From assembly GCA_001303705.1 (NCBI GenBank), contig LJUI01000030.1:1-36318 (forward strand): a stretch of 36,318 bases of DNA, in the 5' to 3' direction. The notes under the pieces are model-generated. The model ran no database searches. It was not told where the DNA came from and was given only the letters and a program-made list of their open reading frames with translations. This DNA is from a candidate division TA06 bacterium SM23_40 (GTDB taxonomy: Bacteria; LJUI01; SM1-40). A program made the position numbers and the translations under genes. Shown piece by piece: positions 1,754-36,318 of this stretch; the first letter of the stretch is position 1, and every line of letters starts with the position of its first letter.

Positions 1754-1782
1754 TTGACCACGGGGACACGATCGCGTTATAT
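1754..1782 (+). promoter_or_regulatory. Putative sigma70-type promoter upstream of the Cys-rich cluster
   Basis: TTGACC (1754-1759), 17-nt spacer, TTATAT (1777-1782), about 90 bp before the ATG at 1874. Confidence 0.5.
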
Positions 1783-1873
1783 TGAGATGTAACATGATCC
1801 TACCGCAAACACCTCGCCTGGCGAGCAGGCGGCGGGGATGAAGGGAGTCCGCCGAGGACAAGAGGCCCACACG

Positions 1874-2284
1874 ATGCGATTCCAGATCATCTGTCTACTC
1901 ACTGCACTTGCCATCACCGGTTCGGGTCTCGCTGCCTCACAGGTTCAGAGGTCTGGAGGCAGCCAGATCTGCGCCGGCCGCGAGGCTCCACGACAACCCG
2001 TGCGGGACGCGGGTTGCACGTGCGGCCCGGCCGCGTGCGGCCTGGCGTGCGGGCCGGCGGTATGTGTCGCTCTCGAGATGGAGTGTACCTGTGGCCCCTC
2101 ATCGGTGGAGAGCTCAGCGGCAACTAGCCCGATGCCGAGAATCAGCGGGGACGTGCCCCTGCCCCCGACAGAGCTTCGGGTGCGCCTCGTGTCGTGCTCC
2201 CTGACAGTCCTTGTCGATGTCCTGCCGCAATCATTCGATGGCGAACCCCCTGAGGAGCCTCCTCGTACGTTGTTGCGTCTTTAG
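1874..2284 (+). CDS. Small exported cysteine-rich protein of unknown function
   Basis: Start at MRFQIICLLTALAITGSGLAAS (signal-peptide-like) inside ORF 1838..2284, followed by CTCGPAACGLACGPAVCVALEMECTCGPSS. Confidence 0.55.
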   Translation: MRFQIICLLTALAITGSGLAASQVQRSGGSQICAGREAPRQPVRDAGCTCGPAACGLACGPAVCVALEMECTCGPSSVESSAATSPMPRISGDVPLPPTELRVRLVSCSLTVLVDVLPQSFDGEPPEEPPRTLLRL

Positions 2285-2375
2285 TGGAGCAGGTGTCTGG
2301 GCCGGAACCGGGATGGGCGCCGCCTGCGAGTGCGGTACCAGCGTCGAGCACTGTGTCGGCGTGGCTCCAGGGTAG
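2217..2375 (+). CDS. Possible 52-aa Cys-containing small ORF overlapping the previous gene
   Basis: Hand translation of frame 3: MSCRNHSMANPLRSLLVRCCVFSGAGVWAGTGMGAACECGTSVEHCVGVAPG*. Below the length cutoff of the supplied ORF track. Confidence 0.2.
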   Translation: MSCRNHSMANPLRSLLVRCCVFSGAGVWAGTGMGAACECGTSVEHCVGVAPG

Positions 2376-2481
2376 AAGAGCGTCCTGGCCTGGCTGCCGT
2401 CGCCGGAGTTCCTGCCGGCTGCATCGGGGCCGGTACAGGGCAAGCCTCAATCAACACGAATGTGAGAAGAGGGAGGAACCC

Positions 2482-3321
2482 ATGAACAAGTATCTGTACA
2501 CTATCGTGCTTGTCATCGTGGTCGCATTAGCGGCGGGAGCATTCTGGGGGTGCCAGCGCGAGCAAGCAGAGCTGTGCGCCATGTGTTCCAAGGAGATTCC
2601 TGCCAGGACGGGCGCCAGGCTCGTCTCCACGGCCGACGAGACGTACTACACGTGCTGCGCCCACTGTGCACTGCTCCTGGCGTCCCGGGCGGGCGACGAG
2701 GGAACGTCCTTCAGACTCATGAAGACCAAGGGCTACGAGACAGGCGATGTCATCGATCTGCCAGAGGCCTTCTTCGTCTATGGATCGGACGTTGTTCCCT
2801 GTTGCGTCCCATCAGTGCTGGCATTTGCCAGTCGCGAGCGGGCAGAGGAGTTTGCCCGGCGCGAGGGCGGTGAGGCACTCGATTGGGGCGGGGCGCGCGC
2901 CACGCTCGCTCTCGAGGCCGGGGATCAGTGTGAGATGTGCTCTAAGAGCCTCGATATCGAGGCCGCCAAGCCGACTGCCCTCCTCCTCGCCAGCGGCGGA
3001 GATCGTGTCGCCTGCTGTCCCCACTGCGCGTTCATGCTGGAGAAGATGCTCGCGGATCGTACAGATGAGCGGGTAGAAGAGATGTGGACCACCGGTGAGG
3101 ATGGCAAGCTGTTCCGCGTCGGCGACGAGACGCGGTTCGTCGCCGACAGCGACGCACCGATCTGCTGCACCCCGATGGTGGTGCCGTGTGCCTCGGAGGA
3201 GGCCGCGAGTGCGTTTATCTCTGAGCACGGAGGCAGGATGCTCGATATGGATGAAACGCGAGCGCTGATGCATGAGCACGCCGGGGAGGGGCGCCACAGC
3301 GGACGCCCTAGTAGTGGATAG
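2482..3321 (+). CDS. Tandem double NosL-like lipoprotein (predicted metal-binding)
   Basis: Lipobox-like AGAFWGC after a TM segment. Two repeats of CxMCSK...CCxHCA...(V/I)xCCxP....FAS/CAS..A..F...GG: CAMCSKEI...YTCCAHCALLLA...VPCCVPSVLAFASRERAEEFARREGGEALDW and CEMCSKSL...VACCPHCAFMLE...ICCTPMVVPCASEEAASAFISEHGGRMLD. Start taken at ATG 2482 rather than 2284. Confidence 0.7.
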   Translation: MNKYLYTIVLVIVVALAAGAFWGCQREQAELCAMCSKEIPARTGARLVSTADETYYTCCAHCALLLASRAGDEGTSFRLMKTKGYETGDVIDLPEAFFVYGSDVVPCCVPSVLAFASRERAEEFARREGGEALDWGGARATLALEAGDQCEMCSKSLDIEAAKPTALLLASGGDRVACCPHCAFMLEKMLADRTDERVEEMWTTGEDGKLFRVGDETRFVADSDAPICCTPMVVPCASEEAASAFISEHGGRMLDMDETRALMHEHAGEGRHSGRPSSG

Positions 3322-3449
3322 AGGTGACGTCCGGATGCAGACGATTGTGACAAACGTGAGGCGCAGTCGAAGAGGGTGCAGTTGAGCGCGCCGCCAGAAC
3401 AGGTTGAACGCCGTGCAGGAAGAGAGGGAAGCCTCAGAAGGAGAATCAT

Positions 3450-3797
3450 GTGGAGAAGCGAGGACTGACAGCCGCCCTGATCATCGTCGTGCTCATCGCT
3501 GCGGTGATGGCGAGCTTTGCCGAGCGTCGAATAGAGGGGCGGCTCGAGGCAGAAAGGCTGGTGGCCCGGCGGGCGTTGCTCCAGTCGCTGGGTGTCTCAT
3601 CGCTCGCTGTCACATCTGAATGCACCCTGGTGCGCAGTCTCACCGAGGGTCTCAGCGGGTGCTTAGGGGACGTGCCGGGTGGGTACTGCACATATACGAG
3701 TTGCGATGTCGTGACGCTCCCTGATTTCGAGACAGATTTCGCATTCGAGCTACGCATCGTGAGGAAGACGAAAGATGGGGATGGCGAAACACCGTAA
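3450..3797 (+). CDS. Small membrane-anchored protein with four Cys in the exported part
   Basis: N-terminal TM (LTAALIIVVLIAAVMASFA), then SECTLVRSLTEGLSGCLGDVPGGYCTYTSCDVV. Overlaps the permease start; upstream purine-rich RBS (AGAAGGAGAA). Confidence 0.6.
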   Translation: MEKRGLTAALIIVVLIAAVMASFAERRIEGRLEAERLVARRALLQSLGVSSLAVTSECTLVRSLTEGLSGCLGDVPGGYCTYTSCDVVTLPDFETDFAFELRIVRKTKDGDGETP

Positions 3798-4971
3798 TCT
3801 CTGGTCGGTTGCTGCATACAATCTCTGGCGGTACCGGCCGAGGACGATCGCCATCCTGCTGCCTCTGGTCGTCGTGATGGGGACTGCGGGGTCGGTGACG
3901 TTCGTGCGCGACGGCCTGAGCCGGGATGCGTCGCTAACAGTGGCGATGCTTCCCGACATCACGGTGCAACAGCTTGTCGGCGGCCGCGTCGAGAGGATGG
4001 CACTCTCCTACGGTGACTCGCTCCGAGCCGTCGAGCACGTCATCAGCGCCGTCCCCAGAGTCTGGGGGTACGTTCCCGTGAGCGTACCTGGAGGTGAGGC
4101 AGCGTACACCCTGATGGGCATCGACCTGGAGCGTATGCCGATCGCCGAGGAGATCGGACTGAGCGTGGAGAAAGGGAGGTTCCTCGTTGCGGGAGACGTC
4201 GATGAGGCAGTCGTGGGGAAGGCGTTTGCCTCGGTCTTCCGGCTCGAGGTCGGCGACAGGATCAACCTCGAGGATGCCCTGGGGAATGAGGCGGAACTCC
4301 AGATCGTCGGTGTCTTCGGCACCGCGGTCGAGATCTACGCGGCAGATCTCCTCGTCGTTTCGCTCGAGACGGCGCGCAAATTCTTCGGGTACCTGGAGAG
4401 CGAGGCGTCGGATTTCTGTGTGTACCTCGATGATCCGGTGTACGCCGACCTGGCGGCGCAGCGGATCCTTGAGATCGGTAACAATCTCCGCGTACTGACA
4501 CGGGATGCCCTCGGGGAACTCACACAGCAAGCCTATGGGGGCCGGGGCGGCGTGTTTCAGCTCATGTGGATGATCCTGCTGCTCACCGTCTGCCTCGTGG
4601 CCTGGGCCCAGAGCGCGAGCATCGGGCTTGCACTGAGGCGGGAGATTGGGATATTGAAGGCCATTGGATGGGGGACTCTTGACATCATCGAAGTTAAAAT
4701 GCTGGAGACCGTCATCATCGCGCTCCTCGGCACATTCGGCGGGATACTGCTCGGCCTGGGGTACCTGGGGCTCGGTGCGCCCGGGATCAAGCAGTACTTC
4801 CTTGGATGGGCGACGGTATATCCGGAGTTTGCCGTGCCGATCTACATGAGCGTCAAGAGCCTGTTTCTGCTGCTCGTTGTGGGAATCTTTCCGCTCCTTG
4901 TGGCAACGGTGGTACCGGCCTGGCTGGTGGGGATCATCGAGCCCGATGAGGCGATCCGCGGCGAGCAGTGA
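3775..4971 (+). CDS. ABC transporter permease, MacB/FtsX/LolC-type
   Basis: N-terminal TM, large periplasmic domain, three C-terminal TMs with the FtsX-type motif LALRREIGILKAIGWGTLDIIEVKMLE. Confidence 0.85.
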   Translation: MGMAKHRNLWSVAAYNLWRYRPRTIAILLPLVVVMGTAGSVTFVRDGLSRDASLTVAMLPDITVQQLVGGRVERMALSYGDSLRAVEHVISAVPRVWGYVPVSVPGGEAAYTLMGIDLERMPIAEEIGLSVEKGRFLVAGDVDEAVVGKAFASVFRLEVGDRINLEDALGNEAELQIVGVFGTAVEIYAADLLVVSLETARKFFGYLESEASDFCVYLDDPVYADLAAQRILEIGNNLRVLTRDALGELTQQAYGGRGGVFQLMWMILLLTVCLVAWAQSASIGLALRREIGILKAIGWGTLDIIEVKMLETVIIALLGTFGGILLGLGYLGLGAPGIKQYFLGWATVYPEFAVPIYMSVKSLFLLLVVGIFPLLVATVVPAWLVGIIEPDEAIRGEQ

Positions 4972-5079
4972 CCAGGTCGAATTAGACCTAGAACAAGGAC
5001 ACTGTTGTTGGCATGTGAGCAGTGGCGCCGTCTGGTTGGTGTTGCTGTGTGACCAGCACAACGAACGTGGATGTGACTC

Positions 5080-5790
5080 GTGACAGCTGCCATTCAGCTC
5101 GAGAACGTGAGCAAGATCTTCTACTCCGGAAGAGAGAGAGTCGAGGCCGTGAAGGAGCTCACCTGTGCGATCGAGGCTGGTGAGGTGGTGCTGTTCAGCG
5201 GCCCCTCGGGAAGCGGGAAGAGCACGCTCCTCAACATGGTGGGCTGCCTGACGAGGCCTACGGTTGGTCGGGTCTTTCTGCGGGGCCGCGAGGTGTCACG
5301 GCTGGCCGACCATTTCCGGAGCGATGTGCGCCGCAATGAAATGGGATTCATCTTTCAACAATTCAACCTGCTTCCCGGATACTCAGCTCTCGACAATGTT
5401 GCGATGCCGCTCGTGCCTCTCGGGCTCCGGGCGAGTGAGAGGCGGGAGCAGGCCGGCATTCTACTGGAGCGGCTTGGCATGTCGCACCGGGCCAGCTTCG
5501 CGGCGAACGAACTGAGCGGGGGCGAGCAGCAGCGGGTGGCGATCGCCCGGGCCCTCGTGGGCGATCCCTGGCTCATTCTCGCAGATGAGCCAAGCTCTAA
5601 CGTTGACATGAAGACGGCACATAGACTGCTCTCCATCTTCTCCGAATTCAAGAAGGAAGGGAAGACACTCGTCATTGCATCTCACGATCAGATGCTGCTA
5701 GAGAGCGATCTCATCGATCGGGAGCTTGTGCTTCCGGATGGAGAGTGGGTGCGGCGTGGACGGTCGCAGGCGCCACCCACGGCGGTGTAA
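5080..5790 (+). CDS. ABC transporter ATP-binding protein, LolD/MacB-type
   Basis: Walker [10 protein letters not shown], signature [15 protein letters not shown], Walker [14 protein letters not shown]-loop ASHD. GTG start. Confidence 0.93.
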
Positions 5791-5804
5791 CAGAGGGTAT
5801 CGTA

Positions 5805-6776
5805 ATGGTCATCAGCGGGCTGACCGTGACCTATCTTCTCATCTCAGTCCTCACGTTGGTGGTCGCCATACCGGCTGCAGTCGTCGCCTTCGTCGTGGCG
5901 CGCCACTGGAGGCCGGAGTCAGGATTGGAGCAGCAACACCAGCTCGAGCGGTGGGTCTATCTCGTCATCACGCTCGTGGCTCTCGGGCTCTCACTCCGCC
6001 TCGGGCTCGTGCCGCTCTGGTTCCTCACGCTCTGGAGTCTGATATCGTATGTGCCTGGAGCCATGTGCCTCGCGGGGATGCACATGTTGTATCCGCCGTG
6101 GTCGTTCGTGGCCTCTGCTCTCAAGTTCGTCGTGCCTCTCATGTACGGGTACTGGTTGGTACTCAATGCGCTCGACAGGAAAATAGAAAGTCAGCCGTTC
6201 ATGCGTCGGAAGCTCTTCCTGCAGGCGCCTATTGCTCTACTGGTCCTCGTGGAGAGTAGTCTCGATTTCCGCGTTCTGGCGGCCGTCGAGCCCCGGAGCG
6301 TCAGCTGCTGCACATCGCTATTCGATATGCCGACGACAGCTGTGACGAAGGCCATCTCGTCGAGCACCCCGGTATGGGCCTGGACGTTTGTCGTCCTGGC
6401 CCTGGCCGTTATAGCGTTAGCGCTCGTGGTCCGTCGGATGCCAGCCATACCCCTGAGGGCTGCACTCGTCGTTGCAGCTGCGGCCACGCTGCCGATCTAC
6501 ATACTGGCGCTCCACACGAAGCTCTCCCCTCTTCTTCTCCATGCACCATTCCACCATTGCGTGTTCTGCGTCATGCAGATGTCAGTCGACATACCCGTAG
6601 CCAGCGGCCTCATCATCTCCGGGTGCTGGCTATCCTTCGTGGCGGGAGTCCTTCCCTCCGGCGTCGAGCAGGATGTGTACAGGGGGCTCCTGGACAAGCT
6701 CCTGCGCCTGTCGGTCGGAACACTTGCTGTTGGTGGTATCATGCTGGCGGTTCGGGTTTTTGTGACGGTTCTGTGA
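5805..6776 (+). CDS. Polytopic integral membrane protein with CC and HHCVFC motifs, unknown function
   Basis: About eight hydrophobic segments; RSVSCCTSLFD and LHAPFHHCVFCVMQ motifs. ATG at 5805 chosen inside ORF 5745..6776, which otherwise overlaps the ATPase end. Confidence 0.75.
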   Translation: MVISGLTVTYLLISVLTLVVAIPAAVVAFVVARHWRPESGLEQQHQLERWVYLVITLVALGLSLRLGLVPLWFLTLWSLISYVPGAMCLAGMHMLYPPWSFVASALKFVVPLMYGYWLVLNALDRKIESQPFMRRKLFLQAPIALLVLVESSLDFRVLAAVEPRSVSCCTSLFDMPTTAVTKAISSSTPVWAWTFVVLALAVIALALVVRRMPAIPLRAALVVAAAATLPIYILALHTKLSPLLLHAPFHHCVFCVMQMSVDIPVASGLIISGCWLSFVAGVLPSGVEQDVYRGLLDKLLRLSVGTLAVGGIMLAVRVFVTVL

Positions 6777-6821
6777 CGGCCGAAGAATTGGAGAGGTCGA
6801 GGACATTGTGTGAATGCATTG

Positions 6822-6840
6822 ACATGAAGTTCATTCATGT
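6822..6840. promoter_or_regulatory. Inverted repeat upstream of the lipoprotein gene
   Basis: ACATGAA-GTTCA-TTCATGT: perfect 7-bp arms, 5-nt loop. Confidence 0.4.
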
Positions 6841-6870
6841 GATGAGAGAGCCATAAGATACTACCAGCAA

Positions 6871-6883
6871 CGTTCACTGAACG
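6871..6883. promoter_or_regulatory. Palindromic candidate operator
   Basis: CGTTCA-C-TGAACG: perfect 6-bp arms around one base, about 26 bp upstream of the GTG at 6909. Confidence 0.35.
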
Positions 6884-6908
6884 AACAGAAGACGTTGGAG
6901 GTTTCATC

Positions 6909-7859
6909 GTGCGAATAAGAGGCTGGATGGATACGGTGCCGATGCTCGCAGTAGTGGTGGTGATCTTCGTTGGGATGTGGAGCGGCGGATGCGCGGAGCG
7001 CAGGAAGCCGGGTGATACTGCGCCAGTTCTGCTCCAGGAGATCGATCGTGTCGAACTCCTGTACTCCGAGGATGGCTTCCGCGAGGCGATGCTTGTGGAG
7101 GTGCTGGGAGTGGGGCTGAACACCCCCGAGGCCGAGACTTATCGCTTCGACGTGGGTATTGTCGATACACTTCCTCTCGGAGAGACCCTTCTCTTTCCCA
7201 CCGAGAACCCGCTGGCGGTCTATACGTTCTATGGCAGAGAGTACGCGCTCCCGTGGCTCCTCGAGGAGGCAGGGGAGACGAAGCGGCTCCGGTTCGAGCT
7301 ATCCGATGTGCCGGCCATCGACCTCGATCAGGCGGTGACGTGCACGGTAAGTGATCAGTGTGGTGGGGCGTGCAGTGTCTGTTTCCAGTACTCGACGACG
7401 TGGAGAGGGGAGCAAGGGGAATGGGGCGACCTCGCCTTCGTCACATCGAAGAGTTCGATCCCCATCGGACGGGCCACCAATGTCGATGTCCTCATCTCCG
7501 TCAAGACAGGGATTCTCCGTGACGCCGTCTGCAGCATCATCATTCCCGTCCGCGTGAGAGGAGCACGCATCGGGCTCCGCGACGCCCCACAGGAGATGAC
7601 GGTGCAGCGGCACGATCGGTGGCTTCAACTCACCGGAGAGGTGAAGGGTGGCGTAGACACTTACTCAGTATCGATTGCAGTTGAGCCCTCTCTTCCGGGC
7701 ACGGTTGCCGTGCGGGACTTCGTCGTGGTGCGCGGGAATCTACCGGGTCTCATCGCATCCCCGGCGGCTGTGGTTACGGATCGGGAGGTCACGCGGACGA
7801 CCGGTACCGAGATCTACCACCGCGGAGATCTCCATATCACGGCAATGCAGGCTGACTAG
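6909..7859 (+). CDS. Lipoprotein of unknown function with internal Cys-rich motif
   Basis: Signal plus lipobox-like WSGGC; internal TCTVSDQCGGACSVCFQYS; predicted beta-rich secretory protein. Confidence 0.7.
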   Translation: MRIRGWMDTVPMLAVVVVIFVGMWSGGCAERRKPGDTAPVLLQEIDRVELLYSEDGFREAMLVEVLGVGLNTPEAETYRFDVGIVDTLPLGETLLFPTENPLAVYTFYGREYALPWLLEEAGETKRLRFELSDVPAIDLDQAVTCTVSDQCGGACSVCFQYSTTWRGEQGEWGDLAFVTSKSSIPIGRATNVDVLISVKTGILRDAVCSIIIPVRVRGARIGLRDAPQEMTVQRHDRWLQLTGEVKGGVDTYSVSIAVEPSLPGTVAVRDFVVVRGNLPGLIASPAAVVTDREVTRTTGTEIYHRGDLHITAMQAD

Positions 7860-27100: not shown

Positions 27101-27177
27101 GCGCCCGTAGCTCAACTGGATAGAGCAACGGACTACGAATCCGTAGGTTAGAGGTTCGAATCCCCTCGGGCGCGCCA
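27101..27177 (+). tRNA. tRNA-Arg(ACG)
   Basis: Acceptor GCGCCCG/CGGGCGC, anticodon arm ACGGA-CTACGAA-TCCGT (anticodon ACG), T-loop GGTTCGAATCC, encoded CCA. Confidence 0.97.
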
Positions 27178-27787: not shown

Positions 27788-27877
27788 GGAGAGATGGCCG
27801 AGTCTGGTTGAAGGCGCACGACTCGAAATCGTGTATCCCTTCGGGGATCGGGGGTTCGAATCCCTCTCTCTCCGCCA
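27788..27877 (+). tRNA. tRNA-Ser(CGA)
   Basis: Acceptor GGAGAGA/TCTCTCC, anticodon loop CTCGAAA in CACGA...TCGTG, long variable arm (TATCCCTTCGGGGATC), encoded CCA. Confidence 0.96.
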
Positions 27878-35251: not shown

Positions 35252-36318
35252 TTACCAGAAAGACACAGTGAACTCCGTACTCTCCTCATCGATCAGATCA
35301 TCCGGAGGCGTGCCGATCTTCACCGTATAGATGTACGTGCCGGTGGGAGCATTGAACGGAACCGTGTGGCAGATGTGGATGGCTTTGGTCTGGTGGGGAG
35401 ACACACAGATGTAGGTCGGCCCCGCGACGGGATTCCCCGGATATGAGTTTCCGTTCGGCAGCGTCACATCGGCTATCCCATAGAAGCACTGCTGCGTGCC
35501 CGTGTGGGTTGTCACGGTTGCCGTATAGCAGAAATCGCTGCCGAGGTGGATGTTGACCGAATCAGGATCGATGTGGACCGTGGCAGGACGCTGCGCGAAG
35601 GCCGGCGCAGCGAGCTTCGCGGACTGCAGCACCTCCCTCTCTTCGTCTTTTTGGAGGAATAGAACGGTCTCGCAGTTGTCCCAGACCCAGGCCGGATCGA
35701 CCGTGAAATACCAGGACATCTCGACCGTGTCGCCGGGTTGAGTTGTGATCGGCGTTCCGGATGGCCCGGGTACCATATCTCGCATGGTCTGGTGATGCCA
35801 GAGCATCTGGTTCGGAGCGGGCCAGTAAATATTCGACTCGGTAACGACACAGCGTACGACCAGGGCGGGCCACGGGATGGCCTGGGTAATGATGATCTTC
35901 GCCTTCAGCCGGCCGGTATCGCCCCCCATGCTCCCATCAAGGTGAATTTCGAAGAGGCTCGGCACGCTCTCGCGATTCGTAATCATCCCGTCCCAGTAAC
36001 TATGCGATGCGCCTGCGGGGGAGCCGTCGATCCAGAAGTACGGCACGTACCCGGGATCGTAGTAGTTGGTGCGTGCGGTGTTCTCAATGATGTTTGCCTG
36101 GTAGAAGGGATCAGCCGACGAAGGCCACCACGTGTGGTAGCGGATTAGTGCCAGAGTTGCGCTGTGTTCGATCGCCAGGGTGTCGAGCTTCAGATTTGCC
36201 GGCCGGCAGGGACCACAACTCGTGTTGGTGAAGAGCTCTCCCAGAACGATCCTCTGTGTAGCCATCGAGCTGGTTGCGACCGCGAAGAGGCTCAGTACAA
36301 CGATCGCAACGACAGAAT
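35252..36318 (-). CDS. Omp28-like secreted protein with CGPC thioredoxin-like motif (5'-truncated by window edge)
   Basis: VLGELFTNTSCGPCRPANLKLDTLAIEHSATLALIRYHTWWPSSADPFY. The frame stays open upstream of the listed Met to the window end (SVVAIVVLSLFAVATSSMATQR, signal-peptide-like), so the true start lies outside. Confidence 0.8.
   Translation of the reverse strand, partial: SVVAIVVLSLFAVATSSMATQRIVLGELFTNTSCGPCRPANLKLDTLAIEHSATLALIRYHTWWPSSADPFYQANIIENTARTNYYDPGYVPYFWIDGSPAGASHSYWDGMITNRESVPSLFEIHLDGSMGGDTGRLKAKIIITQAIPWPALVVRCVVTESNIYWPAPNQMLWHHQTMRDMVPGPSGTPITTQPGDTVEMSWYFTVDPAWVWDNCETVLFLQKDEEREVLQSAKLAAPAFAQRPATVHIDPDSVNIHLGSDFCYTATVTTHTGTQQCFYGIADVTLPNGNSYPGNPVAGPTYICVSPHQTKAIHICHTVPFNAPTGTYIYTVKIGTPPDDLIDEESTEFTVSFW

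Follow-up and report, generated by a model that had tools for sequence, protein, structure and literature searches.

Membrane transporters of the LolCDE/MacB group, which belong to the ATP-binding cassette (ABC) type, pass ATP-driven movement to the periplasm and do not carry their substrate through the membrane. NosL is a Cu(I) chaperone, thought to bind its metal via a CXM motif, and has a second conserved Met (PMC6530538); structural homology between NosL and MerB has been reported as well. Moreover, the nos cluster of Sulfurospirillum cavolei (PMC4794192) holds a five-gene insert, OA34_06690 to OA34_06670, between nosL and nosY, comprising a hypothetical gene, an ABC permease, an ABC ATPase and two more hypothetical genes.

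Here we analyzed a window of 36,318 nucleotides, contig LJUI01000030.1 of candidate division TA06 bacterium SM23_40. The draft genome to which this contig belongs (G000) amounts to 2.88 Mb and is about 90% complete, so that gene absences from it are not final. The region of interest extends from 1754 to 7859, with a TPR gene before it and uvrA after it, and contains at 2476–7859 six consecutive forward-strand genes for a double NosL protein, a small protein with a cysteine tail, an FtsX-family permease, an ABC ATPase, a membrane protein with eight transmembrane segments (8-TM protein) and a secreted protein. These genes form a diverged version of a gene set that is conserved among bacteria, here referred to as the module, and on balance they probably serve to handle Cu(I) in the envelope, on the periplasmic side of the inner membrane. 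This view is based on the conservation of the operon, the family assignments, the invariant cysteines, the linkage to copper genes in relatives and the absence of NosZ from nearly all carriers, together with the predicted topology.

Conservation of the module

The 8-TM protein was searched for in 385 other genomes with its single sequence and with a profile. It was found in 12 of them, with one further weak match by single sequence. In addition, one motif pattern of the protein retrieved 427 relatives from a named genome collection, of which 80 loci were kept for their similarity to one Geobacter protein. All counts of operons and neighborhoods given here were taken over 95 loci, which are related to each other. 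The relatives belong to Thermodesulfobacteriota, Nitrospirota, Pseudomonadota (methanotrophs), Methylomirabilota, Fidelibacterota and Myxococcota (tree-tool label), and G000 is the sole representative of its phylum among the genomes sampled. Carriers that can be cultured include Geomonas, Oryzomonas and Methylobacter tundripaludum. In the operon with the 8-TM gene, an ABC ATPase gene is present in 93 loci, a gene for FtsX in 87 and one for a small protein in 81, and NosL is encoded nearby in 78 loci, with at least two NosL in 56; several of the loci that lack a part are contig ends. The window carries what we took as the definition of the module, namely an 8-TM protein with GxMC, CC and PxHxC adjoining FtsX and LolD-like genes. 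In the tree, its 8-TM protein clusters with those of locus L023 (genome G037) and L024 (G360), with 100/100 support and long branches.

A lack of co-occurrence of the families elsewhere had been named by the original prediction as one result that would refute it. The module passes this test, as it recurs as an operon across several phyla. Had we looked at this single genome alone, the envelope genes might have been taken for chance neighbors without any functional unity. This idea is refuted, and practically no weight is left to it, because the gene order recurs in several phyla and two genomes of another phylum share both the cysteine-tailed small protein and the last gene.

A few arrangements in other loci deserve mention. 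In L112 the module is divided: one strand carries the ABC and 8-TM genes, the opposite one those of FtsX, the small protein and NosL. In L036 (G186) a double-NosL version lies downstream of genes resembling those of cytochrome c synthesis (ccs). Small exported proteins rich in cysteine, with CGCGxGCDCG...CSC as the repeated unit, are encoded within or adjoining the operon (L066:4917-5342, L058:5224-5625 and L071:10192-10704), and the one scanned has no Pfam match. Proteins that join a cytochrome c domain to a region resembling a periplasmic substrate-binding protein are found near the module in 8 loci (for example L104:5143-6840, L030:4080-5720 and L095:4301-6064).

The 8-TM membrane protein

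The 45 aligned members of this family match no Pfam or NCBIfam family beyond isolated chance matches, and the window protein has no PDB sequence match at E 1 and no PDB fold match under E 0.2. The best fold match, CcmF (E 0.21, template modelling score 0.22), is not meaningful and was rejected as a relative. The AlphaFold2 model is confident, with a predicted local distance difference test (pLDDT) of 91.5 and a predicted template modelling score (pTM) of 0.87, and comprises eight long helices. By charge distribution (positive-inside topology), the loops after helices 2, 4 and 6 are predicted to lie outside, and these loops carry GAMC (C89), CC (C169, C170) and HHCVFC (H251, C253, C256). Residues C89, C169, C170, H251 and C253 are invariant in the 45 sequences and C256 is nearly so, so that the family motifs read GxMC, CC and PxHxC(xxC). 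The three predicted periplasmic loops would meet in one metal site.

The CxxC and CC motifs in these loops would also suit a thiol/disulfide or sulfur system, in which the cysteines form redox-active disulfides like those of DsbB, VKOR or DsbD and the ABC transporter acts as a thiol exporter; thioredoxin-like neighbors (cluster 14) are in fact present in 10 loci. We consider such a system very improbable, as the protein has no fold match to DsbB, VKOR or DsbD, copper genes are more frequent as neighbors, and one family member has CPFD where the others have CPFC, therefore the CxxC pair is not essential.

The permease and the ATPase

The permease matches lolCE of NCBIfam (3.5e-13) with 49.3 bits against an equivalog cut-off of 362, and its best PDB match is LolC (7arh_C, E 2.6e-8). 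The LolD_lipo_ex score of the ATPase likewise stays under the equivalog cut-off, which is 307.75, and its PDB matches are LolD and MacB. With a single permease gene in the operon and with scores below the LolC/LolE and LolD equivalog levels, the pair does not belong to LolCDE. Nor does it belong to MacAB-TolC: the original prediction had spoken of a MacB-type transporter, a label that cannot be taken literally, since ATPase and permease are encoded as distinct polypeptides, LolC is the nearest match of the permease, and a Pfam search of the operon found no gene for a MacA adaptor (HlyD/MacA). It falls outside the NosDFY-NosL machinery as well, with an FtsX permease, a LolD-like ATPase and, in a search of the operon proteins, no NosD; that nosD, nosF and nosY are missing had been noted for the window.

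The closeness to LolC and LolD, and the description of NosL as an outer-membrane lipoprotein that is likely handled by Lol (PMC6530538), raise the alternative that the pair extracts a NosL-type lipoprotein, or an outer-membrane partner, from the inner membrane in the manner of LolCDE, without any action on metal. This is rather unlikely, given that there is one permease only, against two in LolCDE, and that it leaves unexplained why the 8-TM protein with its invariant cysteines is kept together with FtsX and ABC genes in NosL-free operons (L023, L026, L027, L061 and L064).

NosL and the link to copper

The window protein is a NosL member by profile (PF05573). In an alignment with other NosL domains of module loci, its two domains retain CxxC and C..HC. 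At the aligned CXM motif, however, the Met of the others is replaced by Lys (register CAMCSK and CEMCSK), and the region of the second conserved Met (GxM) reads PCC and ICC; a CxM string is still present, beginning at the first Cys of CxxC. These substitutions would shift the likely metal site from Cys/Met to mostly Cys. A MerB match of this protein (16.7 bits, cut-off 27) fits the structural homology mentioned above and was rejected as evidence for mercury. Beside the module in methanotrophs (Methylobacter, L094:11045-12448) and at L034:11441-13033, a NosL domain and an outer-membrane-barrel-type domain (PF13557) form one protein, an arrangement that hints at a path to the outer membrane.

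In 41 of the 95 loci, at least one copper gene lies within 9 kb of the module, and 24 loci have one in the operon itself. Among foreign neighbors, CusA-type pumps of the resistance-nodulation-division (RND) family come first, in 23 loci, and CusB-type adaptors, which carry a heavy-metal-binding domain, second, in 20, followed by SCO1/SenC (12), multicopper oxidases (10) and CopA-type ATPases (4), while DsbD-like, HMA and cupredoxin proteins recur beside the module in methanotrophs (5 loci). Neighbors were identified by Pfam on representatives and CopA by reading. These counts come from related loci and are suggestive, without amounting to a test.

The NosZ propeller (nos_propeller) was searched for in 53 module-carrying genomes. 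None was found in G000, which agrees with the earlier observation of no nosZ in the window, and 52 of the 53 carriers have none; the single match, in G360, is the positive control that the search works. Maturation of NosZ was consequently rejected as the role of the module in most carriers. As COX2 also has no match in G000, where the same search was positive in 9 control genomes, no consumer of the CuA oxidase kind is visible in this genome. G000 does encode a Cu-type P-type ATPase (637.6 bits, cut-off 397), which adjoins genes resembling ccm genes, and has two RND matches, both under the heavy-metal cut-off.

Instead of removing copper, the module could supply it to some cuproenzyme besides NosZ in the periplasm or membrane (a SCO1-linked oxidase, a multicopper oxidase or enzymes of methanotrophs), as NosDFY does for NosZ. 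The SCO1 and multicopper oxidase linkages and the methanotroph carriers agree with this, as does a NosDFY-NosL locus without NosZ reported in Parageobacillus (PMC13068155). The S. cavolei insert also fits the module by its gene order (PMC4794192). Together with SCO1 and the multicopper oxidases, it is the reason why delivery stays a serious rival. We nevertheless hold delivery to be unlikely: no single cuproenzyme accompanies the module, the most frequent partner, CusAB, is an efflux pump, and G000 has no match to COX2 or NosZ, the two enzymes that the search covered. We favor removal over cofactor delivery, since CusAB is linked to the module more often than any other partner and no cuproenzyme stands out as a client shared by the carriers.

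Proposed mechanism and its weight

An engine of the LolCDE/MacB type, a Cu(I) chaperone family and an invariant set of soft-metal ligands occur together, and an ATP-driven hand-off of Cu(I) in the periplasm is therefore the simplest reading. In such a hand-off, the NosL domains would bind Cu(I) in the periplasm, and the 8-TM protein would supply a Cys/Met/His metal site from its three predicted periplasmic loops. The FtsX permease and the LolD-like ATPase would transport no metal through the membrane; cytoplasmic ATP would drive periplasmic movements (mechanotransmission, as in LolCDE and MacB). Copper would be passed between the 8-TM protein and NosL, and onward to the outer membrane or a copper acceptor. 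The original prediction had proposed an undescribed metal or sulfur module analogous to NosDFY. The conserved operon bears this out in part, and its recurring neighbors point to copper, not sulfur or thiols generally.

Several points weigh against copper handling by this module. The operons of G037 and G182 hold the module without NosL. No copper gene adjoins it in the window or in the closest relatives (L023/L026 and L024). The linkage counts are phylogenetically redundant, with 80 loci picked via one Geobacter protein, and they are not set against a copper-gene frequency. Finally, the loss of the copper-motif Met in the window NosL could mean a different soft metal, and that copper is the metal in this genome is inferred from the relatives.

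We propose, more tentatively, that the 8-TM protein represents membrane Cu(I)-binding proteins of a new class, which with an engine of the LolCDE/MacB type would form an ATP-driven machine for periplasmic copper transfer. This machine would stand apart from P-type ATPases, RND pumps and NosDFY and occur in many environmental bacteria, and in the window version its site would have shifted to mostly thiolate ligands, possibly to suit another soft metal. This proposal is possible, with the odds somewhat against it. If Cu(I) handling by the module is correct, bacterial envelope copper handling gains a further ATP-driven route, relevant to the Geobacter and methanotroph relatives and to copper and metal chemistry in methane and metal cycling. 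It would also account for the NosL genes of many carriers without nitrous oxide reductase, in which an annotation of NosL as an N2O-reduction gene would mislead. The structure of the 8-TM protein would be informative in itself, because no Pfam or NCBIfam model covers it and its confidently predicted fold has no PDB match.

Gene content of the window

The features of the region are compiled in Table 1. Codon usage (synonymous codon score) backs each of the six genes, and the consecutive same-strand order and the quoted cysteine motifs are present as claimed, except that the first open reading frame (ORF) does not count as a gene.

Table 1. Features of the region in the window
Feature	Position	Strand	Evidence
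cys1 ORF with CTCGPAACGLACGPAVC, probably not a gene, outside the module	1874..2284	+	codon score, family searches
Double NosL protein	2476..3321	+	Pfam NosL 55.9 bits, cut-off 24, two stretches; signal/membrane segment ahead
Small protein with N-terminal transmembrane segment and Cys4 tail	3450..3797	+	39% identical to L023/L026 proteins
FtsX-family ABC permease, LolC/E-like, large periplasmic domain	3775..4971	+	Pfam FtsX 29.6 bits
ABC ATPase of the LolD/MacB/FtsE group, motifs intact	5080..5790	+	LolD_lipo_ex 195.9 bits
8-TM membrane protein of an unnamed family	5802..6776	+	RSVSCC and HHCVFC; AlphaFold2, conserved Cys, topology
Secreted, probably membrane-anchored all-beta protein	6909..7859	+	homologues in G037/G182

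Five genes with clustered cysteines had been counted. The motifs exist, but only the NosL protein (5.7%, 16 Cys) and the small protein (3.4%, 4 Cys) have a clearly higher share of cysteine. This share is ordinary in the 8-TM protein (1.85%) and the last protein (1.9%), compared with 1.65% in uvrA and 2.2% in gcvPA. For the 8-TM protein, the sequences indicate that the conservation of its cysteines is unusual, not their number.

The tail of the small protein reads ECT...CLGDVPGGYCTYTSCDVV, with the motifs SEC, GC, YC and SCD. Its counterparts in G037 and G182 stand at the same operon position, which in other loci is that of a small protein with 'TEARYTRHPS'. The last gene has homologues of 22–23% identity at the same position in G037 and G182 and none in the rest of the 386 genomes. 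CGGACSVC, which had been put forward as a motif of the system, is missing from both homologues, and the last protein appears to be an accessory confined to the window-type subgroup; its AlphaFold2 model (pLDDT 40) is unreliable and was set aside. In the operons of G037 and G182, the place of NosL is occupied by a 337-aa exported protein without Pfam match (L026:2607-3620), whose counterpart is a 303-aa open frame (L023:4836-5747).

Codon usage and the lack of any homologue led us to reject the first ORF (CTCGPAACG... and the stretch in Table 1), which had been proposed as a Cys-rich part of the system; it is probably no gene. It has a synonymous codon score of 0.001, against 0.103 ± 0.032 in coding stretches (minimum 0.034) and −0.064 ± 0.092 in non-coding frames, among which it ranks at the 69th percentile, and it has no Pfam or NCBIfam match and no homologue. 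The exported CGCG-type proteins beside the module (L058, L066, L071 and L104) are not recognisably this ORF. The promoter proposed ahead of it, TTGACC-18-TATATT at 1754–1783, exists, but is no better than chance and hence no evidence: the region has three promoter-like sites, against 1.4 ± 1.2 in shuffles.

The surroundings of the module are otherwise housekeeping. Two tRNA genes (Rfam; 27101–27174 and 27788–27874) lie on either side of a tadA-like deaminase gene. The proteins of 35252–36265 (reverse strand) and of L150:4391-6301 in the same genome share a similar stretch (IRYHTWWPSSADPFYQANI and ISYHTWWPSGADPFYLANI, respectively), and the L150 gene stands beside a CopA gene.

Comparison with known systems

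No paper naming or studying the module was found in a literature search that mostly did not extend to subscription journals. Nothing relevant was found joining NosL and FtsX, and a paper on copper in Nitratiruptor mentions neither. The S. cavolei insert resembles the module in its gene order beside nosL and is uninterpreted in the available part of that source (PMC4794192).

Four described systems resemble the module in part. First, CusCFBA shares periplasmic Cu(I) handling and is a frequent neighbor of the module in relatives, but it is a proton-driven RND pump for copper and silver, and none lies beside the window module. Second, MacAB-TolC is of the same ABC type and transmits mechanical movement from a cytoplasmic ATPase to the periplasm, whereas the module has unfused ATPase and permease, no MacA adaptor in the operon and, in relatives, copper genes as neighbors. 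Third, LolCDE is among the closest solved homologues of the permease and ATPase; unlike LolCDE with its LolC and LolE, the module has one permease, scores far under the equivalog cut-offs, and is accompanied by NosL and a Cys membrane protein. Fourth, NosDFY-NosL of Pseudomonas stutzeri (PDB 7OSF-7OSJ, 7ZNQ) likewise places a NosL-type Cu(I) chaperone and an ABC transporter next to the periplasm. The module differs from it in having an FtsX/LolC-type permease in place of NosY, a LolD-type ATPase, the 8-TM Cys protein and no NosD in the operon, and in being carried almost always without NosZ. By this analogy, the module may work like NosDFY-NosL, yet it is not a member of that system; what would be new is a copper relay of NosL and an ABC transporter that runs on another engine and includes a membrane protein from an unnamed family.

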